Assembly (NCBI RefSeq): GCF_003336245.1
Contig: NZ_QPHM01000001.1
Coordinates: 2,484,113 to 2,548,112, forward strand
DNA from: Haloplanus salinus
Lineage (GTDB): Archaea; Halobacteriota; Halobacteria; Halobacteriales; Haloferacaceae
Direction of reading: 5' to 3'
DNA: 64,000 nucleotides
The number at the start of each line of letters is the position of its first letter. The stretch's first letter is position 1. The notes beneath the pieces were generated by a model. The model searched no databases. It worked only from the letters and a program-made list of their open reading frames with translations, and had not been told where the DNA came from. Shown here piece after piece: positions 5,265 through 24,189 of the stretch. The position numbers and the translations under genes were made by a program.

Positions 5265-5267
5265 CGA

Positions 5268-6371: not shown

Positions 6372-6494
6372 AATACATGAATCGACCGCTCGAGTGTAAT
6401 ACCTATCTGTGGCGTCTGTCTACCGTTGCTCGACGTTCGATGTATTATCTCCGTTTCTCCTGTTGTCTCCTTTCGATCGATCGTCCTGGCAGGC

Positions 6495-6511
6495 GAGAAT
6501 TTATTATTCTC
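6495..6511. promoter_or_regulatory. Inverted repeat over a TATA-like element
   Basis: Arms GAGAAT and ATTCTC flank TTATT, together making an AT-rich TATA-like block that ends 16 bases before the ATG at 6528. It may be the core promoter with an overlapping operator for the downstream small gene. It lies in the divergent region 6372-6527. Confidence 0.4.
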
Positions 6512-6527
6512 TAAGAGACGGCTGTAC

Positions 6528-6878: not shown

Positions 6879-6980
6879 TTAGTGGAATCTCGTGTTGACC
6901 AGCTACGAGAGCGAAACTGGGAAGCAGAGTTGTCGTTCCGGGTCAGACTCAACACGGCCTCATTAGCACGCAGACGACGG

Positions 6981-7187
6981 TTATCCATTCTCTTGAACGA
7001 TCGCTAACAGCGTTTCAGCGATATCTGAACAGGGGAGATCGGAAGTCCCTAAATCTTCCAGATCCTCGCGGGCAGCCATGACGACGTGAGTCTGTTGCCC
7101 ACAGTTCGTACACTCGTACATAGCGTCTTCAGAGACTGGTTCGAGTGTCGACCGATCACAAGTTGGGCAGCTGAGGCCAGCAGTCAT
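6981..7187 (-). CDS. Small zinc-ribbon protein
   Basis: A 68-residue protein with two CxxC knuckles, CPTC and CTNC, 19 residues apart, a classic zinc ribbon. The C-terminal part is acidic. The start ATG at 7187 shares one base with the stop of the upstream short frame (TGATG). Such proteins are common as small nucleic-acid or protein-binding adaptors in haloarchaea. Specific role unknown. Confidence 0.65.
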   Translation of the reverse strand: MTAGLSCPTCDRSTLEPVSEDAMYECTNCGQQTHVVMAAREDLEDLGTSDLPCSDIAETLLAIVQENG

Positions 7188-7342
7188 CAGTCGCTCACCT
7201 CGGTGGCTGCATGGTCGCACTCGTCAGTTCTACACGATTGCTCTCTTGGATTCAAATGACCAGACCCTCCTTGTGAATTAGAGCGGCGGAATTGCGCGGA
7301 GATCAGTAGACGCCGCTCGGTACGGTAACTGGGTGTCTGTTC
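7187..7342 (-). CDS. Possible short protein upstream of zinc-ribbon gene
   Basis: A short frame of about 51 residues starting MEQTPSYRTE (first ATG near 7342; the open frame extends to 7426). It ends in TGATG with the zinc-ribbon gene, which is the main reason to take it seriously. Composition is Arg/Ser-rich with two cysteines and no known motif. It may be non-coding. Confidence 0.3.
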   Translation of the reverse strand, partial: EQTPSYRTERRLLISAQFRRSNSQGGSGHLNPREQSCRTDECDHAATEVSD

Positions 7343-7457
7343 CATTGACTTGCCACGCCGAGTACGTCGACGGTATCGGTTTGACGGGCGCTTCTCCGTT
7401 CGTATCGCTTCAACCGCTCGGATCATCTTGCGTGGTTGCTACCTATGGTCACAAATA

Positions 7458-7478
7458 CTTAGTTAGTAAATAACCAAG
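7458..7478. promoter_or_regulatory. Imperfect palindrome / TATA region before the gene at 7487
   Basis: Arms CTTAGTTA and TAACCAAG (7 of 8 pairs) with a GTAAA spacer, ending 8 bases before the ATG at 7487. The AT-rich block could be the TATA element of a leaderless transcript, with the symmetry as operator. Confidence 0.4.
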
Positions 7479-7486
7479 AACTGTGT

Positions 7487-8212
7487 ATGAGTCGTGACCC
7501 CGCCCTCCTGACACCAGCCCAACGAGAGTACCTACGCGGTGAGGCGGAGTACGAGCGGGAGCAGTCCGAGACCAATACTCGCTACCGGATGCGGAAGCGC
7601 ATCCGCAATTCGCTGAAGGATCTCGAACTGCTCTCCAAGGAGCTCGATCCGGAAGATCGGAAACAAGTGTTCGCCGACCTTCATCCGTTGACGGATGATG
7701 ACGCCGAGTCGGACGACTTGCCACTCCGCGAAGACGAGATGTCCGGTGTTATTGGGGCAATCACATTCCTCTACGCCGGTTCGCGAGACATCGGCATTCC
7801 GTTCGAACAGCTCGTCGAGTACGGCCTGCTTCGGGCGCTCGATCAGGAGCTGGAGGGGCCGTTTACCAGCGGAACAGCGACAGTTACGATCGAAACGCAG
7901 TCTCAGGTCGACCCCGACGCAGTTGTAGAGAAAATTGCGGCTGAGCGCTCGTTATCTGCCGTCGAGTACGAGGCGATCAAGCGTCTCCTCGGGAGTGATC
8001 TCGATCGGCTGTTAGAGGCGTTCGAAGATATCAACCTTCCAGTCGTGGACGAAGAAGAGCAATCCGACACCCTATCACTTGGCCGATCGCTTGTACTGAT
8101 GGCGCGACTCTTGGACGATCCGACATATCTCGATCCGGAGATGGCCCGGCAGCTCCTCGCACCTCGGATCGGACGTGAATTTAGTCTTCCCTCCTATTCG
8201 GCGGATACGTGA
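7487..8212 (+). CDS. Conserved haloarchaeal-type protein, function unknown
   Basis: A 241-residue soluble, helical and acidic protein. The first 70 residues are charged and possibly coiled (TPAQREYLRGEAEYERE; KELDPEDRKQVFADL). No catalytic motif, cysteine cluster or membrane segment is visible. Its opening resembles haloarchaeal plasmid and island proteins that I know only as hypothetical. The AT-rich palindrome just upstream supports a leaderless promoter. It stands alone. Confidence 0.75.
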   Translation: MSRDPALLTPAQREYLRGEAEYEREQSETNTRYRMRKRIRNSLKDLELLSKELDPEDRKQVFADLHPLTDDDAESDDLPLREDEMSGVIGAITFLYAGSRDIGIPFEQLVEYGLLRALDQELEGPFTSGTATVTIETQSQVDPDAVVEKIAAERSLSAVEYEAIKRLLGSDLDRLLEAFEDINLPVVDEEEQSDTLSLGRSLVLMARLLDDPTYLDPEMARQLLAPRIGREFSLPSYSADT

Positions 8213-8413
8213 TCAAAAGTGGCGCTAAGATTGGGTCCGATACTCAAATACTGTCGGAGAAATGATCGGGAATTAATATGTTTCTGCGGTCGTACTGCAT
8301 ACAGAGCGTCTACTCACTAGGCCTGCCCGATGTCGGCTGTAGATCAGCTTAGCCTCTCGAGAGTTCGACGATCAGCTGTCTTTGCTATCCTTCTACAGAC
8401 GCAGTACGGCTCA

Positions 8414-9451
8414 TCACGGGTTCCAGAGATGAGATATGAAGCGCCCATCATGGGCTCGTTTTAGAACAGGGAGCTTCCTGAAGGGCTGGCGGGTGGGAGG
8501 GCGAACCTCATCGACTCGATCGTTGGATCGTACTGCAAGCACACCGACACGCTCGTCGACTTCGGTAGCGAACTCACAAGCTGCCACAACGTGTTCGGAG
8601 GGCACTGCAATCGAGACATGTGAGCAGACGCCGGATTCAAGATACGCGTCCAGTTGCTCGCGAAGTCGGGACCGCGTCGAGGCGTCAAACCGGGATTTGA
8701 CTTCGATACCGTGAATTTTGGTCTTTGGCGTGATCGGGGGAACAACGTCGCGTTTGACGACGATCAGATCGATTTGAGACTTTGGATCTCGTCGTTTGAC
8801 CTCACAATCACGAATCTGGCGCTGTGCTGGTCTCGTCACCGGCACTTCGGCAGAGACCCAGTAGCCGTGCCGACGGTAGAACTGTGCAATTCGTGCCGTC
8901 GTCTGCTGTTCGCCGGTATGTGGGGTTAACTCGACCTGCGGGAGGCCAGTGTCGTTGACGTTATCGGGTGTAATCGCATATTCAAGCTTGTGCTCTTGAT
9001 GATTGTAGTGAAGTTGTCCCGATGCCCACTCGTATTCACGGAGTGATTCGCGCCGCATTGTGACGAGCCAGACCTCATCGAATAGTGGTGTTGATGTCCT
9101 TGCAACCGTTCCGTCAGGCGTAATTGGCCTCCCACCGACAACATCAGATAGCAACCAGTCTTCGTATTTTTCCAATTGCCGCTTTACTGTGTTGAGCGAG
9201 TCTATGTGGTTCTTGACTTCCAACCCAACCGTCCGCCGCGGGCTACGCTGTTTCTGTTGCCAGACAAGGTCGATCCGACCGTCGATACCGCCAACTTCAC
9301 ACTAGCACGTGCCGAATTGCGAGAGCCACTCGTAGAGTGCGTACTGTAAATCCATCTGTGAGGGGTAATAGAGTGCCTCTGGCATCCTCTCCTTCGCCCA
9401 CGGTTTGATTTGCTCGCTCTCCCGTGCTCCACGGCCACTGGTTGGAAACAT
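8414..9451 (-). pseudogene. Two-domain PD-(D/E)xK nuclease gene interrupted by an in-frame TAG
   Basis: Read from the ATG at 9451, the frame opens MFPTSGRGARES and continues to 8414, but codon 50 is TAG (9302-9304). Just after it comes a PD-(D/E)xK motif: an Asp in GRIDLVWQQ followed by GLEVKN. A second such motif lies in the C-terminal half: an Asp in SQIDLIVVKRD followed by HGIEVKSR. A restart at the TTG at 9223 would lose the first catalytic Asp. So this is two nuclease-like domains in one chain, broken by one nonsense codon. A sequencing error is the alternative. Confidence 0.7.
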
Positions 9452-10289
9452 CAGTCAACTGGATTTTGTGCTCACGACTCTATGGCGTCTTGAAGTATAG
9501 TTGTTCTCTTGGAACTCTATTCCCAGACAGTGTTCAGTATCTTAGTTTCGTCACGTTTCGATTGGTTCGAATGAGTCTGTCTTCATAATCGGATTCGGGC
9601 ATTAAAACGAGGTGAAGCGCCGTTTTCATCAAGGTTAGAGCTTCTCACGTGGTATCATACTCGTCCGTAGTATCCGCAAGAGGCACCAATCTACCCGCTA
9701 ACACCAGAACTATGTCGGGCAGCTGAGTAATCAGCCGGATTCACAACCGTCGAAATCGGCTGGAACACGGGTCGTGAGCACCGACGAGCGTAGGGGACGA
9801 TGCGACACCGCCCACTCTCAGAGTGCGTGTCGTGTTCATAATTGGTCTCCGTCTGGTGATTAGCTTCACTCAACGGAAGCCTGATTGATCGCTTCGTTGA
9901 GAACAGTCGTAGATGGCCCGATAGCGACGGCGAGCGGGTCACTTACGGGACACGGGGCCACAACCCGACCGTCGCAGTCACGGGACATTTGCTACTCGAT
10001 TTCCGTGATACCGCTGTTCTTGCGGTCGTAGAACCCGATTATGAAACGCAGCTAACCGGCGCTCCGATCGCTAGCACTCCTATACGCCCACCTCATCCCA
10101 CTCCTCCGAGTATGAATTCCCTATGTGCCCTACATTCCAAAGTCTGAGCCTTGTTGAATACCTCAGTTACTGACAGGGTTCAGTAAGAGTGCGGAATACA
10201 GGGTGTGTGTCGGCCAAGCGTATCGCCGGAGAGACTTACCGGATCAATCGGGGGAAATCATCATCAACCGTCTCTCTACATTGTCGCAC
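9452..10289. other. Gene-poor stretch of the island
   Basis: About 840 bases with no convincing gene. Short frames exist but have no motif. A small inverted repeat (arms TTACTGA and TCAGTAA, 10167-10186) lies near the right end. The stretch separates the broken nuclease gene from the defence-like genes and may hold decayed insertion-sequence debris; I cannot show that. Confidence 0.5.
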
Positions 10290-11174
10290 ATGAAGATCGA
10301 ACAGGGTACCTCATTCGGAAGTGTGGGGGAGCACGATGTCGATTTTTCGGTGGCTCAGTTGGTAGAGACCTCTGATTCGTTTAGGCACTGGTTTGTCTCC
10401 CAGACCGATTCCGCTCTCGATATCGTAGGGTACATTGGGGGAGTCCTACACGCGAGTTACGCCGGAGAAGGTGAATCCGATATTGAGTTCGGATTCCTCA
10501 CATCGACTGGGGATCGACATATCGTACTGGTGGAGAACAAAATCTCCGCCGAGAAGCAACCGAACCAGATCGAACGATACTACAACCGGGGAGAGTTCCG
10601 TGTCGAACGTGACGGCTGGGACTCGTACACAGTCTGTTTGCTAGCCCCAGAGAGCTACGTATCAACGGAAGATGAAGCAGAGTTCGATTCGATCATCTAC
10701 TATGAGGACGTTCTTGAACAAATCAAGAGTGGTTCATACGATGGTGGCGATTTCCTCGGGCCTGTGTTTGAAGCGGCACTGACGAAATCACGCACGTCGA
10801 ATACAGCCGACGCAACCGATACGCTCGAGAAACGGGAACAGCTACGAGCCGCAGCAGATCGATACATCAGTCAGCGAGTCGAAGAACTCAGGGCCGAGCT
10901 TTCCGAGCGACGTCTTGAAGAGACACAACGAGAGCTTGATAACCTCGAAGCGTACGCAGAAGCGGAGCGAGAACGGATTGAGGAATTCATAGAGAATTAC
11001 GAACGAAAGGCGGAGGCTGGGTCGGATATGGACATCGCCATTCGCGGACAGCGTCAGCGCCTCAATAAGCTCGAAGAGCGAATAGGGATGCGGAGAAAGG
11101 AGCTACAGAGAAAGGCACAGGTCATCTCGCTGGCCCCGGAAGTGGAAAATCTCTGTCTGACGCTTCCTGTATGA
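10290..11174 (+). CDS. PD-(D/E)xK nuclease-like protein with coiled-coil C-terminus
   Basis: A 294-residue protein. The N-terminal domain has an Asp in GESDIEFGF and the motif VLVENKIS with a following PNQIERY, the pattern of PDDEXK_4-type nucleases (D...ExK plus a downstream Q..RY). The C-terminal 120 residues form a long charged coiled coil ending in APEVENLCLTLPV, like tails found on some SNF2-type helicase proteins (inference). It converges on the 980-residue helicase gene, 291 bases away. It is probably the effector nuclease of the neighbouring gene set, which is inference from position. Confidence 0.75.
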   Translation: MKIEQGTSFGSVGEHDVDFSVAQLVETSDSFRHWFVSQTDSALDIVGYIGGVLHASYAGEGESDIEFGFLTSTGDRHIVLVENKISAEKQPNQIERYYNRGEFRVERDGWDSYTVCLLAPESYVSTEDEAEFDSIIYYEDVLEQIKSGSYDGGDFLGPVFEAALTKSRTSNTADATDTLEKREQLRAAADRYISQRVEELRAELSERRLEETQRELDNLEAYAEAERERIEEFIENYERKAEAGSDMDIAIRGQRQRLNKLEERIGMRRKELQRKAQVISLAPEVENLCLTLPV

Positions 11175-11465
11175 AATATCTTGGTTACGTACTGCTTCTG
11201 TGTGGGTAAAGGTCGTATTCCCACATTAGTGGAGACAGGGAGAAAAATCCGCTGACTGAGAGGATTTCCGGCGAATGAAAATAATTGGATGCCTTCGCTC
11301 ACATCAACCCTTCCCGAAATTTTCATCAAATATAGTATATCTCTCTTGAGAAGGGCGCGCAGAGGTCCGTGCACCCAACGTGGACACTGATTAATTCTGG
11401 CAAAACTTGGCTGTTTGGAACGCGATGATGAAATTTGGTCAAAAACACCGACGAGGCGGGGAAGA
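11175..11465. other. Convergent intergenic region
   Basis: About 290 bases between the convergent nuclease-like gene and the helicase. It has AT-rich runs such as those around 11320-11345 that could terminate transcription. No gene or clear hairpin is seen. Confidence 0.4.
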
Positions 11466-14408
11466 TCATAATAGCCCCTCAAGCTCGTCATCGTCAGGCT
11501 CGTCGATCACAGACGACTCGTCTTCGTCGTAATCGAACTCGTCCGTATTGACGACGCCGAGATAGATTGCTCCCTCGTCGTTGATCATCATCGCGTGGTT
11601 CGCCGTATTGACGATCACGGTTCCGCCACCCTTGCGCCGATGGACGTATTCCGCGATGTCTTCCGCGACATCGTGTTGGATATATTTCCGTCCTTCAGCC
11701 GTCTTCTCGAACGGGCGCCCGTCCGAATCGACACTAAACCGATAGCCCTCCCGAGGGCCAGGGTACGGATCTCCCCGTGAAAGATCCTCCACGTCGGGGA
11801 TGGGACGCTCCGTTCGGGGTTCTGGAATTTCGTCCGCGGTCGCCTCCCGAACGCACTCCCAGAACGGCGTCTTCGGATTCCAGTCCCCGGCTTCCCAGTC
11901 GCCATCCGGATCCCACGTGAGGTGTGACACGCCCGCCATGGAGAGCTGGTCGTCCCAGTCGTACTCGCGGAAGATCTTCTCGTCGACCGTATCTCGCGCG
12001 TAGAGTACGTACAGTTCCGAGCTGTCCGTCGGATCGTCACCAGTGCGGAGGACGCGACCCAGGGTCTGAATTCGTTGGCGAACGCTCCCGGACGAGACCC
12101 GCACGATCCCAACGTCGGCACTCGGGACGTCGACTCCCTCGATGAGCGCTTTCACGCTCAACATGACGTTCGCGAACCCATTGTCGCCAAACCACTCTAC
12201 CGCAAAGTCGTTCCACGCGTCGCTTCGGTGTCCGGAATGATACATGACTGGACGGTAGTCGGCATCGAAAAAGAGGTTCTCGAGGGCTTTGTCCGCCTTT
12301 TCGAGTCCGGGATACTGTTCGTAGAGTCGCTGTCGACTCCCGTACTCTTCCGACACACCGCCGGTTCGATAGTTCCGGCCACGAGACTCTGCCGGGGCGA
12401 CCATCCGCTCCAGTTGCTCGATACGTTCCTGAAAGACGATACTTTTTTGTGATTCCTCGATGGTCTCTTGGAGAAGCGACAGCGTGATCGCTTGGCGGCC
12501 GATCGCGTCTGCGATCAACGTGCGGCGCTGTTGGGTGTAGCGGAAGAAATCCGAGATGGCTGGCGTCGGGTCGTCGGTCGAGCTGGATATCGTCTGTAGT
12601 TTCTGTGCGAAGCTCCCGTTTAGTTCGTATAGTCGGTTCCCGTATCGCGTCTCGATGTCGGAGACGGCGTCGACGACGTTCTCCGTGAGTTGTTCGTACG
12701 TCGTCCGCTCGGCGTCTGTGAGGTCGAACCCGACGTACTTGACGCGGAACTCGGGGATGAGGTTCCGCTCTATCGCTTCGTCGTACGTCAGTTCGTAGTA
12801 GATCTCTCCGAGTTCGTTTAGGAGCATCTCGTCTTTCGCCGAGCGTTCGTCGTCCTCCGGATTCGACAGGGGAGTCGCAGAGAGCCCGAGCGAAGCGGTT
12901 CGCCGGTAGTCGAACACGTTGGAGAACGTGTCTCCCGTGTATCGATGACACTCGTCGGCTACGAGGAGGTGTTCGTCCGGGTCGTCCGCTTCGAGCGTCT
13001 CGCGGAGGAAATCATCTTGCACGGCCGAATTTACGATACTGACGAGGATCCTGCGTCCGTCCCCGAATCGATCTTTGTGTCCGCCACCAGCCCACCCGAC
13101 ATCGTCGGCAGGGACGTTGAGTTTCTCCACGAGTTCGCCGAGCCACTGATGCATGAGGACTTTCGTTGGGACGAGGATCGTGACGACGCCGTCGAGATGG
13201 TTGTCCAACCACCGCCGAACGACATCGAGCGCCATCACGGTCTTTCCGGCTCCGGTGACGACCCGTGCGATCCCGCTTTCGGCACTTCTTCCGTTCGAAC
13301 CGGACGTTTCCGACCGAGATTCGAACCACCGATCGGCAGCCTCCCGTTGCCAGTCGTACAGTTCGAACTCGTCGGGGAACGTGTACGCGGAGCGGTCTGC
13401 GCCAGCCCAGCGCTCGAAGTCGGCACGGGAAAGCCCCGCTCCAGCGGACGTTTTGATTCGAAACGCTTCCGACACGTCGGCGGCGTTGGCAATTCGCTCT
13501 AAGATGTCCGTAGATAGTCCGGAGAGATCGTTACCGGTAAACGAGGGGAATCGCTTTTGAATTTCTTCGCGGAGGTTCTTCTGACGATTCTCTGCTTCGA
13601 CGTACTTCTCCGAGCGACGAATCGTCGGCTTCGAGACGTCGTTTTCGTATGCCGCGGTCTTCAGGTAGTCACGGCGGAACGTGTCGAAAAGCTGTCTGTG
13701 TTTCCCGTGCCCGCCGGATTCCCTGTAGAGATAGTACTTCGCGAGATCGCGTTTGACCCGGTCGGAGGGGGGCTCGACGTGTGCCCCCTCTCGCTTGAGC
13801 CACCGTTCGAACGTCGGAAGAAGATCCGCGTTTCGCAGTCGGTCTTGCCAGCGGTCGGTCGGCTCAGTCGCTACGTAGCCACCCTCCATTTGGCTGGCCG
13901 CCCCCAGTCGGGCGAGGAGCGTCGGATATCCTCGGATTCCCTGATCGTTGAACTCGTAGTCGTGATCGTCTGCCAGTATCTGTTGGATTTCGCCGCGCTT
14001 GAGTGCTTCGTCGGAATTTCGAAGAATCCGGTGGATCGACCGCAGTCCGTCGATGCCTTCCGGGAATTCGCCGTTCAGTACCCAGGTCCGCTTGATAGCG
14101 TACCAGAAGAAGGTTTCAAAGTCGATCTCGTTCGCTTGCCAATCTCGGGCGAACTGCCAGACTGAGATCGTATCGTCGGACCGCTGTCGGAGAACGCCGA
14201 GCTGACAGTACGTGGATACGATCCGTCGCATATAGCTCTCCGAGTATCGATCCCCGCCGTCGGGCTTCCGTAACCGCTCTCGCGCCGCGTCGACGAACGC
14301 CGACTTATCCAGTTCGCTGGCCGCCTCCGTGGCTAGCGTGACGAACACCTTACTCCGATGTTCGGTTTGCTCGACGCCGAAGAGGGGCGGTGGGAAGCGC
14401 CGGCTCAC
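11466..14408 (-). CDS. SF2 DEAD/DEAH-type helicase (980 residues)
   Basis: A large ATP-dependent helicase or translocase. An N-terminal region of about 340 residues has no known motif but reads as winged-helix-like helical DNA-binding modules. The helicase core follows: Walker A VTGAGKT at 384-390, DECH at 485-488, SATP at 510-513, and a C-terminal RecA domain with QTLGRVLRTGD. The layout resembles XPB/type III-restriction-like helicases. Start is GTG at 14408, six bases after the stop of the accessory gene, so they form an operon. The acidic tail ends DEPDDDELEGLL. Confidence 0.88.
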   Translation of the reverse strand: MSRRFPPPLFGVEQTEHRSKVFVTLATEAASELDKSAFVDAARERLRKPDGGDRYSESYMRRIVSTYCQLGVLRQRSDDTISVWQFARDWQANEIDFETFFWYAIKRTWVLNGEFPEGIDGLRSIHRILRNSDEALKRGEIQQILADDHDYEFNDQGIRGYPTLLARLGAASQMEGGYVATEPTDRWQDRLRNADLLPTFERWLKREGAHVEPPSDRVKRDLAKYYLYRESGGHGKHRQLFDTFRRDYLKTAAYENDVSKPTIRRSEKYVEAENRQKNLREEIQKRFPSFTGNDLSGLSTDILERIANAADVSEAFRIKTSAGAGLSRADFERWAGADRSAYTFPDEFELYDWQREAADRWFESRSETSGSNGRSAESGIARVVTGAGKTVMALDVVRRWLDNHLDGVVTILVPTKVLMHQWLGELVEKLNVPADDVGWAGGGHKDRFGDGRRILVSIVNSAVQDDFLRETLEADDPDEHLLVADECHRYTGDTFSNVFDYRRTASLGLSATPLSNPEDDERSAKDEMLLNELGEIYYELTYDEAIERNLIPEFRVKYVGFDLTDAERTTYEQLTENVVDAVSDIETRYGNRLYELNGSFAQKLQTISSSTDDPTPAISDFFRYTQQRRTLIADAIGRQAITLSLLQETIEESQKSIVFQERIEQLERMVAPAESRGRNYRTGGVSEEYGSRQRLYEQYPGLEKADKALENLFFDADYRPVMYHSGHRSDAWNDFAVEWFGDNGFANVMLSVKALIEGVDVPSADVGIVRVSSGSVRQRIQTLGRVLRTGDDPTDSSELYVLYARDTVDEKIFREYDWDDQLSMAGVSHLTWDPDGDWEAGDWNPKTPFWECVREATADEIPEPRTERPIPDVEDLSRGDPYPGPREGYRFSVDSDGRPFEKTAEGRKYIQHDVAEDIAEYVHRRKGGGTVIVNTANHAMMINDEGAIYLGVVNTDEFDYDEDESSVIDEPDDDELEGLL

Positions 14409-14414
14409 TCTCAG

Positions 14415-15263
14415 TCACCAGTCCTCTGGATCGTCGTCTGGGAAGTCAGTGGTGTCGTCCTGCACTCGATGCTCGTCTGGGTCTGTCGTAGAGGTCGGCC
14501 CGAGCGAGCCGGCCCACGAGTTGAGTTGTGCACGTTCCTCCGCGGAGAGTTCGTCCGTCAACGACCGCGGTTCGCCGACCTCGATCGGAACGGTGTCGAC
14601 CGACCCGACGTAGATGGGAAGCATCTCTACCCCTCGTTCACGGCGGAGGACGATGATGTTCTTGATCACCCGTGGGAGGTCGTGAAGCTGTTCGCGCGTT
14701 TGCGTGGGGTTCGGAGGCTCTTCGACGAGCGTAATGACGTCGTTCCAAGGAGTAATTCGGAACGACCCACCACGGGGCTTGAGTCGCTGGAGCGTAGCGA
14801 GAACGTCGTCTGGGAGGTCAGTTTCGACGGGATGTCGCTTGTGCGTTCCTGGATGTTGCCACCAAATCCGGTCGCCACCGATCGAGAACTTCGCGCCATC
14901 GTATACACTCGGCCAGAGATCTCCTGAAGAGAGCCTGTCGGGTCGAATGTCGACACTATACTCCGGTGCGTCCTGGGGCACCAGTTTGTCGGCACTGGGG
15001 AGTTCGCCGACGTACCTGACCTCGTAATCATCGCCCTCCTCGACGCGGGTGATGACCGAATTGTCTTCCGTAACCCGTACGCGGCCGCCGAGCCGCTTGA
15101 GCGAGAGCAAATTGTCGGCGAGTTCGTCGGGTGTCGGCTCGACGTAAAGCCGGTCGGTCCCTTGGTACACTTGCCACCAGACGTCACCGTCCGGATTCGT
15201 CTGAAGCCGATACCCTCGGTAGTAACCGGGCCACTCGTCTCCGGGATGGATGTTTGAGTTCAT
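14415..15263 (-). CDS. Accessory protein with duplicated WPxxYxG / RVT module
   Basis: A 282-residue protein with two copies of one module. Each opens with an aromatic WPxxYxG motif (WPGYYRG; WPSVYDGAKFS), has a WW pair, then G-x-x-R-V/I-T...VIT-x-VEE, then a YVG motif. The same module occurs twice in the protein at 21438-22334. No catalytic residues stand out; it may bind DNA or protein. First gene of the leftward operon with the helicase; ATG at 15263 preferred to TTG at 15275. I know no named family. Confidence 0.8.
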   Translation of the reverse strand: MNSNIHPGDEWPGYYRGYRLQTNPDGDVWWQVYQGTDRLYVEPTPDELADNLLSLKRLGGRVRVTEDNSVITRVEEGDDYEVRYVGELPSADKLVPQDAPEYSVDIRPDRLSSGDLWPSVYDGAKFSIGGDRIWWQHPGTHKRHPVETDLPDDVLATLQRLKPRGGSFRITPWNDVITLVEEPPNPTQTREQLHDLPRVIKNIIVLRRERGVEMLPIYVGSVDTVPIEVGEPRSLTDELSAEERAQLNSWAGSLGPTSTTDPDEHRVQDDTTDFPDDDPEDW

Positions 15264-15300
15264 TCGCTCTCCCAATTGAACTGTCTACTGAGATTTCCGC

Positions 15301-15315
15301 GATAGATATAAATAT
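15301..15315 (-). promoter_or_regulatory. TATA-like element of the leftward operon
   Basis: The leftward strand reads ATATTTATATCTATC about 40-50 bases before the ATG at 15263, a good archaeal TATA region. The divergent region 15264-15437 must also hold the promoter of the SNF2 operon, for which I see only weaker AT-rich sequence. Confidence 0.5.
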
Positions 15316-15437
15316 GTGTCGTGGCGGATAGAACAGGTACGGTATCTCATCCCACATCCGATTCACAATATGTCTCCGAGCAGGACTGTCCGACAGCCGA
15401 GAATTGATATAGTCACGAAGGTCATGCTTTGAAAGAT

Positions 15438-17219
15438 ATGTCGACGGGAGACGATTCCCGTGGAGATCCCGGCGTCAACTGGCGATTCGACGACCCTCCA
15501 TCTCTAAGCGGGATCGGCCGGACTGACGGCGCTGACGCGTCCTCGCACATCCAAGCCCTCCAAGCGTATCGGTTCGGGGTTACTCAGAGCGAACAGGAAC
15601 TGCTGGCGATCGAAGAGATACAGGACAAAGTAAAGCTCCTCGACCACCAGTTGACTGCCGCTCATCGTGCGATAACCAGTATGGGCCGGGGGACGCTCTT
15701 CGCCGACGAGGTGGGGCTCGGCAAGACGATCGAAATCGGGATGGTTCTGAAGGAGATGGATCTCAGAGAGACGCGGGATTCGTTCCTCGCCCTCACGCCC
15801 GCACAACTCGCCAATCAGTGGCAACGGGAGCTGCAAGAGAAATTCGGCCTCGATTTCGTCTGCAATTACGACGACGAATTCGACGGCTTCGCCTCTCACG
15901 ACAAGATCGTCGCGAGCGTAGATACGGCGAAGAGCGAGCGATACATCGACGACGTCCTTCGCCGGCAGTGGGATGTCGTCGTCCTCGACGAAGCGCACTA
16001 CGTTCGCAACGAAGATACGCAGCGATACTCGCTCCTCGAGCGTATCGAGTACGAGGAGGCGTTCTTCGCGACTGCGACGCCGATCCAGAACGACGTCACG
16101 GACCTCTACAATATCGTCAACCTCATCCGCCCCGGATTGCTCGGCTCGCGTCGAGAATTCAAAGACCGGTACGTGGTCGATGGGGACGGGACGAAGGTGA
16201 AAAACGCCGACGAACTACAGCGGAATCTCAACCGGGTGATGATCCGCAACCGACGCGAGGAGACGGACATCGACTTCACGAACCGGAAGGTTCGGACGAA
16301 CGCGTTCGATCCGACTGACGATGAGAAAGCACTCTACAACGCGGTGACGGACTACGTTCGATCCAACTACTCGAGCGAGGATGCGAAGCACCTCGTTTTG
16401 CTGTTACTGCAAAAAGAAGTCGTGAGCAGCCCGAGTGCCGTTCTCTCGACCATCGACAAGTGGCTCCGTGGAGAAGGGTCGGCCACGATCTCCGCGAGCG
16501 AGAAAGAGCAGTTACGGGAGATCAAGGATGTCGCCGAGTCGATCTCGACGACGACGAAACAGGAGCGATTGCAGAGCGTCGTCAAGAGGATCCACGACCA
16601 ACTGGAGACGACACGAGTCGTCGTATTCACACAGTTCCGGTCGACACAGGATGAAATCGCAGCGAGTGCCCGAGAACTAAACCAACCGGTTCACCTCGTG
16701 AACGGCGATTTCTCCAGCAACGAGAAAGACGCCGTCGTCGCAGACTTCGAGCGGGAAGGTGGAGTACTCGTCGCGACGGACTCCATCAGCGAGGGGCGAA
16801 ATATGCAGTTCTGTAACGTGATGGTCAACTACGATTTGCCGTGGAACCCGATGAAAGTAGAGCAGCGAATCGGGCGGATCGACCGCATCGGTCAGGATCG
16901 TGAGGTTCACGTGTTCAACCTCGCGCTCGCGGATACGGTCGAAGAGTACGTCCTCGACAAACTCTACGAGAAGGTCAACCTCTTCACGCAGTCGATCGGT
17001 GGCCTTCGAGAGATCCTCTCGCGGATGGAGAAATCGGGGTCGGACTTCGAGCGGGAAGTGTTCGAACGTCTGCGCACCGCGGACGACCGCGTCGAACTGG
17101 AGAACAACTTTGAGGAGATGGCCGTCGACCTAGAGACGAACAAGGAGGCGGCGGAGAAAATGAGCGAGTTCAACAAGGGTGTCTTCGAAAGCTTCGAATT
17201 CGGGGGTGAAGAGGCGTGA
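15438..17219 (+). CDS. SNF2-family helicase/translocase
   Basis: A 593-residue SNF2/RapA-like translocase. Motifs: DEVGLGKT at 90-97, DEAH at 184-187, TATPIQN as motif III, SEGRNMQFCN, and GRIDRIGQ as motif VI. ATG at 15438 chosen over TTG at 15429. It lacks the long C-terminal extension common in related single-chain proteins; that part seems to sit at the start of the next gene, whose GTG overlaps this stop (GTGA). First gene of a tightly packed four-gene operon. It probably moves on duplex DNA. Confidence 0.92.
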   Translation: MSTGDDSRGDPGVNWRFDDPPSLSGIGRTDGADASSHIQALQAYRFGVTQSEQELLAIEEIQDKVKLLDHQLTAAHRAITSMGRGTLFADEVGLGKTIEIGMVLKEMDLRETRDSFLALTPAQLANQWQRELQEKFGLDFVCNYDDEFDGFASHDKIVASVDTAKSERYIDDVLRRQWDVVVLDEAHYVRNEDTQRYSLLERIEYEEAFFATATPIQNDVTDLYNIVNLIRPGLLGSRREFKDRYVVDGDGTKVKNADELQRNLNRVMIRNRREETDIDFTNRKVRTNAFDPTDDEKALYNAVTDYVRSNYSSEDAKHLVLLLLQKEVVSSPSAVLSTIDKWLRGEGSATISASEKEQLREIKDVAESISTTTKQERLQSVVKRIHDQLETTRVVVFTQFRSTQDEIAASARELNQPVHLVNGDFSSNEKDAVVADFEREGGVLVATDSISEGRNMQFCNVMVNYDLPWNPMKVEQRIGRIDRIGQDREVHVFNLALADTVEEYVLDKLYEKVNLFTQSIGGLREILSRMEKSGSDFEREVFERLRTADDRVELENNFEEMAVDLETNKEAAEKMSEFNKGVFESFEFGGEEA

Positions 17220-20200
17220 GTTCGCTCGATACGAGCGTGCTGAATCGGGTGAGTATCAAGCGTCTCACCGAAGCCGTAATCGAAACAGCGGGCGGGAGCG
17301 TCGATCGCTCATCGCCGAAACGGTGGTCGGTCACGCTTCCACCCGGACTCGCCTCACACTCCAATTCGGGCGTGGACGGGCGCAACCACTCCCGGAATAC
17401 GGGGAACGACTCCCTCGACGCGATCGCTTCCGGTATTGAGGAGGAACACACGCCACGTGCCGAATCGGAGACGACGCTCGTGTTCGATCCGTCTAACGAA
17501 GATCCCGAGATCGACGACGTGGTCGTTCGTCCGGGGACGCCCTTCTTCAACTCGCTCTTGGATCTCGCCCGAGAGGGCGAGAGTGTCGCATACGTTCGTC
17601 TCGGTGCGAGTGAGTTACAGATCCACGAACCACCGATATTTGAAGTCGTCGAGCCGGACGCTCGCATCACGGACTTCGAACCGACGGGTGCGGATATCGC
17701 CCTCGTGTTTCACTTCCACGTCCAGATCGAGAGCATCCAATCGTATCATGAAGAACGGTTCGAGACGATCACTCTCGATGTCGACAGCGGTGCTCGACTC
17801 TCCGGACTCACCGAACGACTCGTGTCCCACTTCGATACGCTATCGAGGAACGCACGGCCCGCCGAGCCGGTCGACATCGACGATGCTACCGTCGAGCGAC
17901 TCTACGATTCGGCGACAGGGATCCTCCAAGAGCGAGTTTCTTCGGATGTTGACGAACTGAAGACGGACGCTGATAGTGCGGCTAGCGAGCGCGAAGAGGA
18001 GATTCGGACGCTCTACGAACAGCGTCGGGAGGAGTTAGACGAGGAACTCGAAGCGCAACAGAAGGAGGTTCAGAAGTGGAACAGGAAAGCCAGAAATGCC
18101 CGAAATAAGAGCACTCGTAACCGGTATCTTTCGAAGCGACAGGAGGCCAAGCAGGAACTTGAGCAACTCGAAGCGGAGATCGAGGAGCGCAAAGAGGAGC
18201 TCCGAAAGGAGGAGCAAGAGCAGATTTCGACGACGACTGCTCGATACGCTATCGACGTAGACGTCATCTCGGTCGGGACGACCGTCGTTACGTACGACCG
18301 TGGGCATCTGACGGTCGAAATCGAAGACGAGGAACGAGTTGGGGAGACGACCGTGGTGTACACGCCCGCGACGGACACGTTCGACTCCCTCAGTTGCGAC
18401 GATTGTGGCACGGAGTTCGATCCGACTAGCCCCCCGGTCGTCTGCGACGACGGCCACGTGATCTGTCCGGCGTGTCGATTCGAGTGCGACGGCTGTGGTA
18501 CGCTCGTGTGTGGTTCGAACCCCGACGTTTCCATTGAGTGTGAATACTGCGGAACTGTGGAGTGCGAGTCGTGTCAAGACACTTGTTCCGGGTGTGGACG
18601 CGTCGTTTGCGCTGCGCACCGAGCGACGTGTTCGGCCGACGGCAATTCGATTTGCACCCTCTGTGGGACTGACTGTTCGACGTGCGAGACGTTCTACTGT
18701 GACGATCACCTACTCGTCTGTGAGACGGACGGCGAACATCACTGCCTCGACCACACTCAGGAGTGTGATTTCTGTGGGGATCCGACCTGCACGGATCACC
18801 TCGGCGAGTGCGTCGTCTGCGATGGCGGGTTCTGTGTCGGCGACCGTAACGACGCCGTCGACGTCGATGGGGCCTTGTGTCCGGATCACTCGGGGTACTG
18901 CTCGCACTGCGACGGCTACCACACGACAGACGACCTCCGGACGTGCAACGTCTGTGAATCGACGGTCTGCAACGACCACTCGGAGACCTGCTCGATCGGT
19001 GGCGAAATTGCGTGTCAGACTCACCTCGTCACTTGCGAAACGGACGACGAGACCGTCTGTACTACTCACGCCATCGACTGTTCGGTCTGCGGTGGGGCGC
19101 ACTGCGAAGAACACGCGACGACGTGTGACGCGTGCGACGAGGCGGTTGGCACGGAGCACGTGATTCCCTGCACCGACTGTGGAGATCGCGTCTGTCCGGC
19201 GGATCGATACACGTGCGAGGACTGCGGCGACGTATTCTGTACGAAACACACCGCGACGTGTACCGACTGCGGCGAGCGATTCTGTTACGACGACCTAACG
19301 AACTGTGATTCTTGTCACAGCTGGACGTGTGACGAACACCTCACCGAATGTTGCATCTGTAGCGGCGAATTCTGTGGAGCGCACACGACGGCGTGTGAGG
19401 ACTGCGGCGACGACCTCTGTACGGCCCACGCCGTCGACTGCACGTCCTGCGATGGCGTCTACTGTGAGGAGCACGTCGCGGAATGCGATATCTGTGGGGA
19501 CTTCACGTGTCTGGACGATCTCCAGTCGTGTGGCGTCTGCGGGGATCACGTCTGTTCGGCGCACTTGGTCTGGTCTCCGCACTCGGAAGCGACGCTCTGT
19601 GTCGATCACGCCGTCGAGTGCAGCGAGTGTGGAGCGTACTGTGCCGAACGGGATGCCGACGAGTGCTTCGTCTGTGATGCTCTGGTCTGTCCAACCCACG
19701 CAACTACCTGTGAAATGTGTGGAGAGATCACGTGCCCGGACGACACGATCGCCTGTACCGACTGTGACGAACCCCACTGTCCCCGACACACGGCAGAGTG
19801 TCACGACTGTGGGGACGTGTTCTGCGCCGATCACCTGCTCGACTGTGCTGGATGTGACAGTGTCGTCTGTTGGTCGGACACCGTCGACTGTGCCGCAGAT
19901 GGTGACGTGTTCGCGTCGTCACACCTCGAAGCGTGCGCGACCTGTGGTGAGAGCTTCTGCGGGGGGCACCGCGATGAATGTACGATCTGTGGAGAGATTC
20001 GCTGTGAGGACCACGTCGCGAGATGCGCGGTAGACGACGAGCCGTACTGTGAACGCCACCTATCGAGCTGTTCCCTGTGCGAGGACGATGACGGAACCGG
20101 AGCCGAATTGCTCTGTCCCGAGCACGTCGTCAGCTGCGATGTCGGCGGTGAATCGCTCTGTACCCATCACGCTCGGACGGATCCGATAACCCGTGATGTC

Positions 20201-20500
20201 GTCTGCCCGGAGCACACCGAACCGTGTGAACTCTGCCGACAGGAGTACGTACCGAGTACGATCGATGAGGGTCGCTGTGAGACGTGCAGAGCGCTCGGCG
20301 AACGTACCGTCGACGTTCCCGAAGAGATTGCCGACGGATTCTGGTCAGTCAAGGGTGCAGCCAACGATTCGTACCTCGTCGTCTACGGGAAACGTCTTCT
20401 CGGTGCCAACCAACTGGTCGTCCTCGACCGAACGACCGGCGACGAAGTCGATCGCTGGAAGGTCGGCGTTCTCGCCCGACTTCGTGGGGTGTTCAAATGA
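17216..20500 (+). CDS. Giant zinc-repeat protein with coiled coil
   Basis: A 1094-residue protein. Residues 1-240 resemble an extension of SNF2 proteins (RPGTPFFNSLLDLA). About 240-345 is a charged coiled coil. From about 393 to 1025 runs an array of 15-residue repeats of form C-x2-C-x4-C-x2-H-x3, for example CTDCGERFCYDDLTN then CDSCHSWTCDEHLTE. Many units are perfect; some change position 4 to Asp/Gly or position 12 to Asp. The last 60 residues form a small separate domain (GFWSVKGAANDSYLVVYG). It should bind dozens of zinc ions. GTG start overlaps the SNF2 stop; the next ATG overlaps its own stop. Likely partner of the SNF2 enzyme. Confidence 0.9.
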   Translation: MSSLDTSVLNRVSIKRLTEAVIETAGGSVDRSSPKRWSVTLPPGLASHSNSGVDGRNHSRNTGNDSLDAIASGIEEEHTPRAESETTLVFDPSNEDPEIDDVVVRPGTPFFNSLLDLAREGESVAYVRLGASELQIHEPPIFEVVEPDARITDFEPTGADIALVFHFHVQIESIQSYHEERFETITLDVDSGARLSGLTERLVSHFDTLSRNARPAEPVDIDDATVERLYDSATGILQERVSSDVDELKTDADSAASEREEEIRTLYEQRREELDEELEAQQKEVQKWNRKARNARNKSTRNRYLSKRQEAKQELEQLEAEIEERKEELRKEEQEQISTTTARYAIDVDVISVGTTVVTYDRGHLTVEIEDEERVGETTVVYTPATDTFDSLSCDDCGTEFDPTSPPVVCDDGHVICPACRFECDGCGTLVCGSNPDVSIECEYCGTVECESCQDTCSGCGRVVCAAHRATCSADGNSICTLCGTDCSTCETFYCDDHLLVCETDGEHHCLDHTQECDFCGDPTCTDHLGECVVCDGGFCVGDRNDAVDVDGALCPDHSGYCSHCDGYHTTDDLRTCNVCESTVCNDHSETCSIGGEIACQTHLVTCETDDETVCTTHAIDCSVCGGAHCEEHATTCDACDEAVGTEHVIPCTDCGDRVCPADRYTCEDCGDVFCTKHTATCTDCGERFCYDDLTNCDSCHSWTCDEHLTECCICSGEFCGAHTTACEDCGDDLCTAHAVDCTSCDGVYCEEHVAECDICGDFTCLDDLQSCGVCGDHVCSAHLVWSPHSEATLCVDHAVECSECGAYCAERDADECFVCDALVCPTHATTCEMCGEITCPDDTIACTDCDEPHCPRHTAECHDCGDVFCADHLLDCAGCDSVVCWSDTVDCAADGDVFASSHLEACATCGESFCGGHRDECTICGEIRCEDHVARCAVDDEPYCERHLSSCSLCEDDDGTGAELLCPEHVVSCDVGGESLCTHHARTDPITRDVVCPEHTEPCELCRQEYVPSTIDEGRCETCRALGERTVDVPEEIADGFWSVKGAANDSYLVVYGKRLLGANQLVVLDRTTGDEVDRWKVGVLARLRGVFK

Positions 20501-21441
20501 GCCGACACGAACTCCCAAGCTGGTACGAACCGGACGATGTCTCCGAGTCGATGCAGAACGTGGCCGATAATTCCGACGTGTATCTCGAGGAAGTGGTAGA
20601 TATCCTCCAGTACCACGAGTTCGATGCGCCTCGGGATCGAATTCGGGAGCTCGTCGAAACGGCACGAGATCAGATTTCGGACCTCCACTCTGACTCCGAG
20701 GCACAGAGCGAAGTGACCGGCGAACCTCGTTCACTGGAGCCTCGATTCGTCGACGTCACTGACGTTGGATATCTCGATACCCAAGATTTCGCGCTCGTTC
20801 TTGGTGTCGTCCTCTCTCGCTACGAGGGTAGTTTCACGGTTCCGGAGGTGGGGGGGGATGTCGCAGTCGATCTTCTCTGGAATCGTCAGCACACGACCGT
20901 CGCGCTCAGAACGATCTCCCGCCCTCCCGAGATGCCCGTGGAAGAAGCGGACGTTCAATTTGTCGTCAGAGGAGACACCGATCCAGATACGAGTCGGTCA
21001 CCGTCACGACTTGGTATCGTGTCGAATGCAGGCTTCACCAACGATGCACGCGATCTCGCTACGGCGAACGATATCGAGCTGTTCGGGGAGGATCACCTCG
21101 AACGGTGGCTTGCCGATACGATGCTCACGCACGAGACGCTTGGAGCTCTCCTCGAAAGCGAGGATAGCGACACCAGCGAGTTCGAAGACGTACTCGCTGA
21201 TCTTCAGACGATCCCGGGGATAGTGCGTGAGCGCGACCCGATTGGCGACGTAACTCCGCCAGGGTGGTCAATCAACGGTGGCGGAGACACGACTGTCTCG
21301 GGAGTGAAACAACGGATGCCAGTCGCGGAAGATCCACCGTCGCCGGGTACGCACGGCGAACTCTACGCCGATCCGAGTGAAGATGGTGACTTCGGTGCGT
21401 TCGATCGCTTCGTGCACGAACTGCAGGAGGATACTGAATGA
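20497..21441 (+). CDS. Mrr-like restriction-fold protein with degenerate active site
   Basis: A 314-residue protein. The middle carries an Mrr-type fold: GGDVAVDLLW, then VALRT, then LGIVSNAGFTNDARDLA and IELFGEDHLERWL, which match the closing part of Mrr domains. In active Mrr proteins the strand after the Asp ends in QxK; here it reads LRT, so the catalytic Lys is missing. It may bind DNA without cutting. The N-terminal 90 residues are helical and acidic, the C-terminal tail disordered. ATGA overlaps with both neighbours place it in the SNF2 operon. Confidence 0.8.
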   Translation: MSRHELPSWYEPDDVSESMQNVADNSDVYLEEVVDILQYHEFDAPRDRIRELVETARDQISDLHSDSEAQSEVTGEPRSLEPRFVDVTDVGYLDTQDFALVLGVVLSRYEGSFTVPEVGGDVAVDLLWNRQHTTVALRTISRPPEMPVEEADVQFVVRGDTDPDTSRSPSRLGIVSNAGFTNDARDLATANDIELFGEDHLERWLADTMLTHETLGALLESEDSDTSEFEDVLADLQTIPGIVRERDPIGDVTPPGWSINGGGDTTVSGVKQRMPVAEDPPSPGTHGELYADPSEDGDFGAFDRFVHELQEDTE

Positions 21442-22334
21442 GTCTCATGTTCGAAACAGAGTCGACGAAGGTACCGATCAGCCACGAACAGTCCGTCACA
21501 GTGTCGCCGAAGCAGCCGTGGCCGTCGGCGTACCGGGGCTCCAAATACAGTCTCGTCAGCGACGAAGATTTCGGCGACGATGCTGTGTTGAAGTGGGAAC
21601 AACGGGATCTATCTATCTTCGCGGAGCCACCGAGAGGACTTCGGCGGACGATGACGCTGGCCGGCAAGAGCGGCGGATACGGGAGCTTCCGGGTCACCGC
21701 TCACGGCGAGGTTCTGACCAAGGTGGAAGCAGACGACTATTCGAATCTCGATCAAGCTCCCGTTTCGGAGGGGTGGATCCCGGTCTACCTCGGGAAGCTC
21801 TCCGGAGAGATGGACTTCGGGAGCGTCGAAATCGATCCCGACCCGCCACGCGACGGCGTCGCCGTCTGGACGGGATTTCCGTTCAACCACGGCGAGCGCT
21901 GGTCGGTTAGTCACGACGGCAAACTCATCTGGAAGTGGCGAGACTATCGCTTCAAGTCGGCGTTCGATCACGCGGAACTGATAGCCGCATACGGTGACTA
22001 TCGACCGAATCCGGGCCGACTGTACGTCACGGAACACGGTCACGTCTGGGTGAACGTTCCGTACGACGACGTGATGCCCGACAAACGATCTGAGATCGAA
22101 AACGCCGTCGCTGCTTGGAAACAGGACGCCGAAGCTCGTGGAGACGCCAGTACGCTTCGCCTCGTCAATCGTCGACTGGTCGCCACCAGTTCGACGGACG
22201 ATCCCGCCGACGGATATCTCCCCGTTCATCTCGGGCACCTACGGGAGTTCGACGGTGGGATGGTGCCACGGCCGATCGTCGACGACGAGGAGTACTTCCT
22301 CGAAGTCGGGCAGTACGAGGAAGTCTGGGAATAA
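21438..22334 (+). CDS. Accessory protein with the duplicated WPxxYxG / RVT module
   Basis: A 298-residue protein related to the product at 14415-15263. It opens its first module with WPSAYRGSKYS, followed by GSFRVTAHGEVLTKVE and IPVYLG. A second module has GRLYVTEHGHVWVNVP and YLPVHLG. Last gene of the four-gene operon, coupled by ATGA. Having one paralogue in each divergent operon suggests that both helicase complexes use the same type of adaptor, which is inference. Confidence 0.8.
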   Translation: MSLMFETESTKVPISHEQSVTVSPKQPWPSAYRGSKYSLVSDEDFGDDAVLKWEQRDLSIFAEPPRGLRRTMTLAGKSGGYGSFRVTAHGEVLTKVEADDYSNLDQAPVSEGWIPVYLGKLSGEMDFGSVEIDPDPPRDGVAVWTGFPFNHGERWSVSHDGKLIWKWRDYRFKSAFDHAELIAAYGDYRPNPGRLYVTEHGHVWVNVPYDDVMPDKRSEIENAVAAWKQDAEARGDASTLRLVNRRLVATSSTDDPADGYLPVHLGHLREFDGGMVPRPIVDDEEYFLEVGQYEEVWE

Positions 22335-22487
22335 TCGATTCGCTAATTCTGCTCGGAGAACATCAGTGAGATCTTCTGTAGTGACCGGTGTTGGTAGTCG
22401 CACTGAATACAGATTGGATAACAGAAACGGATTCCGAAGAATGAGCTACTCTACCTGTTAACCCCGTCCGGAGTGACGTTTAGTTAT

Positions 22488-23783
22488 TCATTCCTCGGCC
22501 AATTTGTCTAAAAGAGCGGCTTTCACGTCGGGATCATCCAACAGTTCATCCAGCTTGTCTATCTTCGCTTGCGTCTCCGTATCGTCGGGGTCTGTTTGCT
22601 TGTAGGACTCTTTTACATCGGTGCTGACCTTGTCCTCCACCTCTTTGACGTCCGGTGAGTACACCAACCCACAATAGGGGCAGGACTTCCAATCGCCCTC
22701 TAATCGTTCCCCGCAACGATCACACACCGGCGGCGTGAGCGGACTGTCCTCGTCGGGATCGCGGAGTCCCTGAGCCACCTCGGCGGCCTCGATGTGATCC
22801 TCATCAGTGAGGTGGGCATAGGTGCGTTCCATCACCTTGCTGTCGGGTTCGTGTCCAATCAGGTGCTTTATGTTGTCGTTGTCCATGCCGTAGTCCCGCT
22901 TACACACCGTCACGAAGTAGTGGCGGAAGTTGTGAGCGTTCACCGGCTTGTCTACCCCGGCTGCATCCCCGATTCGCTGGAGCTGTCGATACAAGGTACT
23001 CGGATCTAGCTTGTCTCCCGGCTCCACGCCGTCACGATTGCTCTGATCGTGTTTGTGCGTGATGAGATAATCGTCCGGATCGCCAGTCGGGTGTTGTCGC
23101 ACCCAGTCACGAACGGCCTTATTGGCACCTAAGAGGGGTCGTTTGCCTTTCGCACCCTTGAGGTCACCATCGTCGTCGTTGAGATAGAAAATCCCATCTT
23201 CCGGCTTCACGTCCTTGAGTCTGAGATTCAAAATCGCGCTCCGTCGTTGACCGGTGTAGAGGAGTAGATCGACGAGGCAGATGTCCCGAGAACCGCGGCG
23301 TTTGGCTTCTTCGCGGAGGGCCTGCACATCCTCCTTGGAGAACATATCCCGCTCGTTGACGGAAGACTCGTCTTGTTCAGCAAAGTGAATTTCCTCCCGG
23401 TCAACTCCTAAGTCATCGTGGTAGAGGTAGAAGCGGCGAGTTGGGCCCTGAAAGTTCCGCACAGTGCTACTTTCTAATCCCTCGTCCTTGACGCCAGCAA
23501 CATTGCCGTTGAGATAGGCGTCCATCAGGGAGTTGATGTCGTAGGCAGTAGCTTCGGTCAGCTCCGGTTCCAAGTCTCGTGCCACGCGGCAGAGCGCCCG
23601 TGCGTAGCGAGCGAGCGTCCCGTCTTCCTTGACCTTTCCATCGGGCATTTGGTAGGTGTTCCGACGGGGGTCGTTCGCATCTAAAAATTCGAGTATTAGC
23701 TGCCTCTCCTCGTCGCTCACGTCTTCGTCATTCTCGATTCGCTTTCGGGCGGTTTCGTATCGCTCCCGCATTGATTTCGCCAT
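22488..23783 (-). CDS. Tyrosine recombinase (integrase) with C-terminal zinc ribbon
   Basis: A 431-residue XerC/D-like recombinase. Catalytic set: Arg at 180 (TGQRRSAIL), His284/Arg287 (HNFRH), His311 (LIGHE) and Tyr322 (RTYAHLT), all present. After the catalytic domain a zinc ribbon has CDRC at 354-357 and CPYC at 368-371, then an acidic helical tail. An N-terminal SAM-like core-binding domain is present. It sits at the right end of the island facing inward, 75 bases from the junction, the normal place for an element integrase. It presumably cuts inside the DUF309 gene. Confidence 0.93.
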   Translation of the reverse strand: MAKSMRERYETARKRIENDEDVSDEERQLILEFLDANDPRRNTYQMPDGKVKEDGTLARYARALCRVARDLEPELTEATAYDINSLMDAYLNGNVAGVKDEGLESSTVRNFQGPTRRFYLYHDDLGVDREEIHFAEQDESSVNERDMFSKEDVQALREEAKRRGSRDICLVDLLLYTGQRRSAILNLRLKDVKPEDGIFYLNDDDGDLKGAKGKRPLLGANKAVRDWVRQHPTGDPDDYLITHKHDQSNRDGVEPGDKLDPSTLYRQLQRIGDAAGVDKPVNAHNFRHYFVTVCKRDYGMDNDNIKHLIGHEPDSKVMERTYAHLTDEDHIEAAEVAQGLRDPDEDSPLTPPVCDRCGERLEGDWKSCPYCGLVYSPDVKEVEDKVSTDVKESYKQTDPDDTETQAKIDKLDELLDDPDVKAALLDKLAEE

Positions 23784-23793
23784 GGTGGCACGC

Positions 23794-23828
23794 CTCTCTC
23801 CGAGAGAGTCACTCTGCTCTCTTATAGC
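23794..23828 (-). promoter_or_regulatory. Integrase promoter region with inverted repeat
   Basis: On the integrase strand a TATA-like CTATAAGAG lies about 40 bases before the ATG at 23783. Between them is an inverted repeat CTCTCT-CCG-AGAGAG (23794-23808) that could be an operator. Confidence 0.45.
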
Positions 23829-23858
23829 TAGGGATTAGTTACACCTATCCAAACAGTA

Positions 23859-24179: not shown

Positions 24180-24189
24180 CGCCGTCGCG

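Follow-up and report, generated by a model that had tools for sequence, protein, structure and literature searches.

A mobile six-gene set of haloarchaea joining two motor modules, a candidate DNA-exclusion defence

Introduction

The described system nearest to the locus treated here is PbeABCD of halophilic archaea, which occurs with DndCDEA and was reported to stop halovirus replication while the viral DNA stayed intact and was not cleaved (PMC6459918). Further points of reference are the SNF2 helicases of BREX type 3, BREX-related (BR) and ARMADA systems and DrmD of DISARM. We analysed a stretch of 64,000 nucleotides from Haloplanus salinus (contig NZ_QPHM01000001.1, positions 2,484,113 to 2,548,112), in the following called the window, and describe a set of six genes, A to F, located at positions 11466-22334. 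These encode a superfamily 2 (SF2) translocase (A), two adaptor proteins (B and F), an SNF2 motor (C), a zinc-repeat protein (D) and an Mrr-fold protein (E). Judged by the genes that define BREX, DISARM, Druantia, Pbe and Dnd, the set belongs to none of these systems; its motors belong to families known from BREX/DISARM and from Pbe. An antiviral or antiplasmid role is very likely and well supported by context. On balance we lean towards a mobile haloarchaeal DNA-exclusion defence, which joins two modules with two motors and most likely blocks DNA without cutting it.

Much less is known about immunity in archaea than in bacteria, and the set is a gene system that is apparently undescribed, recurrent and mobile, and whose modular history is clear. 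Two of its protein families, the adaptor module and an array of 15-residue zinc units, have no known relatives, and the set would link the motor families of Pbe/Dnd and BREX/DISARM in one machine. It also constitutes a natural experiment: the active site of an Mrr fold is intact where the partner module is absent and lost where it is present. Moreover, whether motors suffice to exclude DNA can be tested directly with the set.

Results and Discussion

Layout and conservation of the set

All six open reading frames (ORFs) of the original prediction were confirmed (Table 1). They form two operons, which start from a 153-bp region and run leftward (B-A) and rightward (C-D-E-F). The prediction had taken gene overlaps and a shared adaptor module as showing joint function. 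Overlaps are present at C/D (GTGA, 17216-17219), D/E (ATGA, 20497-20500) and E/F (ATGA, 21438-21441), but not between A and B, which are 6 nt apart. Alone, overlaps and a common module are no proof of joint function; the conservation of the set as a whole and the correlated divergence, both described below, are stronger evidence for it. For B, the ATG listed in Table 1 is more likely the start than the TTG at position 15275, where the tool-listed ORF begins; E starts with the ATG at 20497.

Rare co-occurrence elsewhere had been named as one of two outcomes that would refute the prediction. Family-profile mapping located intact sets in 12 haloarchaeal genomes of several families, two of them on plasmids. 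Besides the window genome, the hosts are Halopenitus malekzadehii, Haloferax marisrubri, Haloferax lucentense (plasmid pSVX82-3), Halobellus rarus, Halorientalis regularis, Halarchaeum nitratireducens, Haloarcula amylovorans, Halorhabdus tiamatea (plasmid pHTIA) and the genomes G160, G241 and G388. In Halopenitus, all six genes lie on the same strand in the order B-A-C-D-E-F. Broken copies were found in G075 and in Haloquadratum walsbyi J07HQW1, and rearranged ones in a Haloquadratum metagenome-assembled genome (C-D-E-F, then B-F-A) and in Halorubrum salsamenti (G131), where AddAB-like genes separate A from C. As the set is conserved in 12 intact copies, some of which are differently arranged, a chance grouping is excluded.

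For ten sets, pairwise divergences were compared. They correlate for every gene pair (r 0.76-0.93, Mantel p 0.0005) and cut across host families: A of the window compares at 73-76% with its counterparts in Halorhabdus, Halarchaeum and G241, and at 60-64% with those of hosts from the same family. The set therefore moves as a unit, and the interpretation of the six genes as one functional unit is supported. Its presence is patchy: of 392 genomes from the order, 17 encode a full-length A. The scores are well separated, with 1304-1768 bits for full-length copies, less than 150 bits for fragments and other helicases, and one partial copy of 732 bits in between. Isolated matches to the C-terminal module of A (G030, G261 and, weakly, G232), like a fragment of A in G383, are apparently decayed remnants or due to chance. 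A pattern scan for F over about 85,000 species gave matches in Halobacteria only, although such scans miss distant relatives. Scanning the viral contigs of IMG/VR (A1 and A3 scans) gave distant SF2 helicases or nothing, and no sign of a virus-borne set.

Table 1. Positions of the six genes, their domains and the surrounding element in the window.
Feature	Position	Strand	Remarks
Gene A	11466..14408	-	980-residue SF2 translocase; PbeA/XPB-like core at residues ~340-815; motifs TGAGKT, DECH, QRIQTLGRVLR
N-terminal tandem winged helices of A	13839..14408	-	residues 1-190; BpuJI/FokI-like recognition fold, tentative (pLDDT 67 model)
Adaptor-module copy at the C-terminus of A	11535..11786	-	residues ~875-958; hhalign E-value 1.7e-5
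Gene B, adaptor protein 1	14415..15263	-	two module copies; ATG at 15263
Divergent intergenic region B-C	15276..15428	.	presumed promoters
Gene C	15429..17219	+	596-residue SNF2 motor of BrxHII/DrmD/RapA type; GLGKT, DEAH, QRIGRIDRIGQ intact
Gene D	17216..20500	+	1094 residues; homology with the C-terminal part of BrxHII-like helicases at residues ~9-332
Zinc-ligand array of D	18395..20296	+	15-residue units C-x2-C-x4-C-x2-[HD]; 110 Cys; strongly acidic; putative zinc binding, from the pattern
Gene E, Mrr-fold protein	20497..21441	+	catalytic Q-x-K lost; TVALRTIS versus VGIQAKAY in compact-set relatives
Gene F, adaptor protein 2	21438..22334	+	two beta-rich units; without known fold match
Tyrosine integrase with zinc ribbon	22488..23783	-	probable mobiliser; two sister species have it at this site, too
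Integrated element bearing the set	5235..23858	.	in host DUF309-like gene; 5' part 4986-5234, 3' part from 23859

The motor proteins A, C and D

A and C had been called helicases, in agreement with their Pfam matches (ResIII/DEAD/Helicase_C for A, SNF2/Helicase_C for C). Residues 340-791 of A match the PbeA model with an E-value of 2.3e-42, and the match to TIGR04095 (4.5e-30) is below the cut-off. Among known structures, those of XPB and UvsW are closest to this motor, and the ATPase motifs are kept. The N-terminus of A was modelled as tandem winged helices with a predicted local distance difference test (pLDDT) value of 67; a nuclease fold was not seen in residues 1-190. The best long fold matches are BpuJI (Z 9.3, 175 residues), FokI (Z 9.0, 174 residues) and Nt.BspD6I (Z 8.4, 172 residues), whereas single winged-helix proteins align over 66-87 residues only. 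For the BpuJI/FokI type of fold, Foldseek gave a probability of 0.97 but an E-value of 0.057, and VIA a root-mean-square deviation of 4.2. We tentatively regard this predicted fold, which aligns over 172-195 residues to the type IIS enzymes, as resembling the DNA-recognition domains of BpuJI and FokI. In contrast to these enzymes, A has no PD-(D/E)XK nuclease domain, and the recognition-like part is fused to a translocase. FokI-type winged-helix modules are known to recur in phosphorothioation defence proteins (PMC10853773). In the PDB, sequence profiles of E, F and the N-terminus of A had no match.

C matches the DrmD and BrxHII models with E-values of 1e-64 to 1e-79 and BrxH models with 3e-65; it is weakly similar to DrmA and scores 268 bits, versus a cut-off of 610 bits for DrmD in NCBIfam. 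The N-terminus of D is related to the part that follows the motor in BrxHII-like proteins (hhalign probability 95%, E-value 2.2e-8). Because D begins with a homologue of the BrxHII-like C-terminus, C and the N-terminus of D are, as judged from their sequences, a split motor of BrxHII/RapA type to which a zinc array was added. The description of D as a zinc-repeat protein agrees with its cysteine content and the period of 15 residues, most units of which follow the C-x2-C-x4-C-x2-[HD] pattern.

The adaptors and the Mrr-fold protein

That B and F share an adaptor module, as had been claimed, was corroborated by hhalign (probability 97%, E-value 1.5e-11), and the module occurs once more at the C-terminus of A. 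Neither B nor F has a significant Pfam match. A fold search of F against the PDB gave no significant match (best Foldseek E-value 0.58; best VIA Z 2.4, to PCNA), and these values were not interpreted.

E had been predicted to be an Mrr-like protein with a restriction fold. The fold is retained, but the catalytic Q-x-K is missing in the window. In the compact C-D-E sets, all five E proteins keep FE...GDQGVD...QAK, whereas Q-x-K is lost in each of the 17 F-containing sets examined. E thus resembles Mrr type IV restriction enzymes in its fold, and its compact-set relatives keep the active site; unlike these enzymes, E of the six-gene sets has lost the D...(Q/E)-x-K site. In locus L060 (188-3241), an E protein of about 1000 residues is lengthened by several copies of a segment of the form GSWDEALEAAGI; other ORFs close to the loci contain segments like these (L046, L100).

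Comparison with described systems

Like the SNF2 helicases of BREX type 3, the BR systems and ARMADA, and like DrmD of DISARM, C and the N-terminus of D share the BrxHII/DrmD/RapA architecture. Unlike BrxHII and DrmD, the putative motor is split over two genes here and carries the zinc array. Pfam, PADLOC and NCBIfam scans gave no match in the six-gene set to a methyltransferase, PglZ or DUF1998, as stated originally, and BREX PglZ and BrxC/PglY were matched neither there nor in the four near neighbours scanned. Of DISARM, neither DrmA, DrmB (DUF1998), DrmC (PLD) nor the methyltransferase was found in the set, which in these respects differs from both systems. A has a core of ResIII/XPB type and no DUF1998 match, unlike Druantia and other YprA systems. 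The likeness to DISARM, BREX and Druantia proposed in the original prediction thus holds for C-D, with its SNF2 motor of BREX/DISARM, but not for A, which is of PbeA/XPB type and not of YprA type.

The similarity to PbeABCD concerns the A motor, whose closest relative is PbeA, the occurrence of B-F-A in Pbe/Dnd operons of three genomes, the halophilic archaeal hosts and the motor-based exclusion reported for that system. Unlike PbeABCD, the set of the window contains neither PbeC, the CxC ABC ATPase, nor PbeD; such genes stand beside B-F-A in loci L092 and L098 only. A further differs from PbeA by its predicted winged helices and by having no Pfam match to an HKD/PLD domain. The SNF2 half, the zinc array and the adaptors are absent from Pbe. 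A dependence of the set on phosphorothioation was rejected, since DndC is present in only 4 of the 25 carriers tested; the window genome is among the 21 that lack it. For this reason phosphorothioation is not the general answer to how self DNA would be spared.

The literature searched, PADLOC 2.0 and NCBIfam 20 contained no description of the gene set and no named system of this composition, which agrees with the original prediction, for which such a match would have been the second refutation; the coverage of the literature was partial, so that a description may exist outside it.

Separate occurrence of the two modules

Two modules, B-F-A and C-D(-E), make up the set, and each of them is also found separately. 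B-F-A without C-D-E was found in nine genomes: Halalkalirubrum salinum, two Halorussus, Halobaculum magnesiiphilum, Natrinema pellirubrum, Halalkaliarchaeum AArc-CO, G423, G210 and G091. In G091 (L099, 6757-17023), the operon has the order B-F-A-DndC-DndD-DndE-DndA, where we take the last gene, from its sequence, to be the cysteine desulfurase DndA. In G423 and G210 (L092 and L098, 8.5-17.8 kb), B-F-A is preceded by a PbeA-like helicase, PbeC and a small DndE-like gene without PADLOC hit; the PbeA partner is a helicase-only form of 475 residues. Two further uncharacterised genes lie upstream of B-F-A in L093 (3580-6769; 597 and 381 residues), L094, L096 and the Halalkaliarchaeum plasmid L124, and are possibly additional subunits of that variant.

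C-D-E with a shorter D of about 680 residues stands alone in G029, G081, G092 and on a plasmid of Halocatena salina; a decayed copy is present in H. walsbyi J07HQW1. Commoner is C with a D of 400 residues that lacks the zinc array, a combination found also on contig C4 of the window organism itself, where it adjoins an AddA/AddB-like helicase-nuclease pair (L003, 4119-14589). The same kind of AddA/AddB-like neighbours stands next to C-D-E-F in G131 (L034). The latter was considered as a case of C-D-E-F without A and discarded: A lies on the same contig, beyond the AddAB-like genes. Except for one contig of 6.4 kb, F is always near A or B.

The integrated element and its insertion site

The set lies in a low-GC stretch of the window and had been called cargo of a mobile element, a claim strengthened by an integrase, a split host gene and empty sites in three sister species. 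In these (G070, G076, G069), the flank up to 5234 and the one from 23859 onward adjoin each other within an intact gene, which we take from its sequence to be DUF309-like; in the window this gene is split (4986-5234 and 23859-24180). As the sister flanks are contiguous at the empty site, the element comprises about 18.6 kb. Its ends were set from the empty sites; direct repeats of at least 18 nt were not found there. A tyrosine integrase stands at its right end. Sister G072 kept the integrase and, of the set, only the 3' end of F. In G071, both element ends are kept, and McrBC, AddAB-like and CARF-PIN genes take the place of the six genes. The insertion site is a defence-type site with swappable cargo.

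The element bears its own complete DUF309-like copy (5268-5762) in inverse orientation, as if replacing the disrupted gene. At 10203-11174, a PD-(D/E)XK_4-like domain is joined to a segment that corresponds to the final ~120 residues of BrxHII-like helicases (E-value 5e-55), without the helicase itself; this fusion gene is also kept in G071. A possible nuclease of sce7726/DUF5787 type is located at 8414-9223.

Proposed function and alternatives

The defence reading is supported by the B-F-A genes in Dnd/Pbe operons and from the McrBC, CARF-PIN and AddAB-like genes at the same insertion site. In the exclusion mechanism that we favour, A would read DNA via its winged helices and translocate with its PbeA/XPB-type motor, and B and F, whose module recurs at the C-terminus of A, would couple A to the rest. 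C and the N-terminus of D would act as a split SNF2 motor, with the zinc array as scaffold or binding arm, and E would be a dead Mrr fold retained for binding DNA or protein. Both motors would engage incoming DNA and exclude it, either by blocking its replication or transcription while leaving it uncut, as PbeABCD is reported to act, or by hand-over to a host nuclease. Since no nuclease is recognisable in the set, the non-cutting block appears most likely. The gene set itself, its conservation and mobility, the motor motifs and the loss of the E active site are shown by the analysis; complex formation, DNA recognition, the block and the sparing of self DNA we infer. A more specific version is offered tentatively, as possible rather than probable: a nuclease-free machine, in which two motors, a sequence-reading SF2 and a split SNF2 one, together stall foreign DNA or strip it, bridged by a zinc array with dozens of units and by a novel adaptor module, and in which the gain of A-B-F let the former Mrr nuclease of C-D-E decay into a structural part.

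Several points weigh against exclusion without cutting. Non-cleavage rests on no nuclease having been recognised; B, D, F or residues 193-268 of A, a low-confidence region, may contain a nuclease of novel fold, and a nuclease may be supplied by the host. For A, the similarity in fold is moderate (Foldseek E-value 0.057, VIA Z 9.3, pLDDT 67), no self-protection factor was found, and the loss of the E site together with the presence of A may be one ancestral event and not a repeated association. In addition, the absence of cleavage by PbeA is disputed, as PbeA was argued to carry an HKD nuclease and to cleave (PMC10853773). A cleaving defence, whose motors, in the manner of type I/III restriction, load an unrecognised nuclease with a divergent active site in A, B or F, or recruit one of the host, would accord with this argument, with the ResIII match that places the A motor in the type III restriction class, with the intact Mrr site of the compact C-D-E relatives and with the AddAB-like helicase-nuclease genes adjoining C-D in several loci. 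We judge it unlikely, given that A, B, D and F have no nuclease family match, that E has lost Q-x-K wherever F was present in the sets examined, and that the six-gene loci have no constant nuclease neighbour.

The separate occurrence of each module, B-F-A in nine genomes and C-D-E or C-D elsewhere, would also fit two independent systems that merely share a cassette as cargo. Yet F is now part of the C-D-E operon, joined by an ATGA overlap in the window, and B is still with A, so that the adaptor pair is split between the two operons; furthermore, the divergences of all six genes correlate, and the E site is lost only where A, B and F are present. We thus consider independence rather unlikely. 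A role outside defence, as a complex for element maintenance, replication control or DNA repair of mobile elements or plasmids, is improbable: copies do reside on plasmids and integrated elements, and the RapA and XPB families, to which the motors are related, work in transcription and repair, but B-F-A is repeatedly operon-linked to Dnd/Pbe defence genes, McrBC was swapped in at the same site, and the set is patchily distributed (17 of 392 genomes) and frequently decayed.

CARF-PIN and ADP-ribosylglycohydrolase genes recur near the loci, namely in L148 (2159-3190 and 3819-4748), L097 (9532-10566), L121 (20544-21470) and L122 (573-1481).

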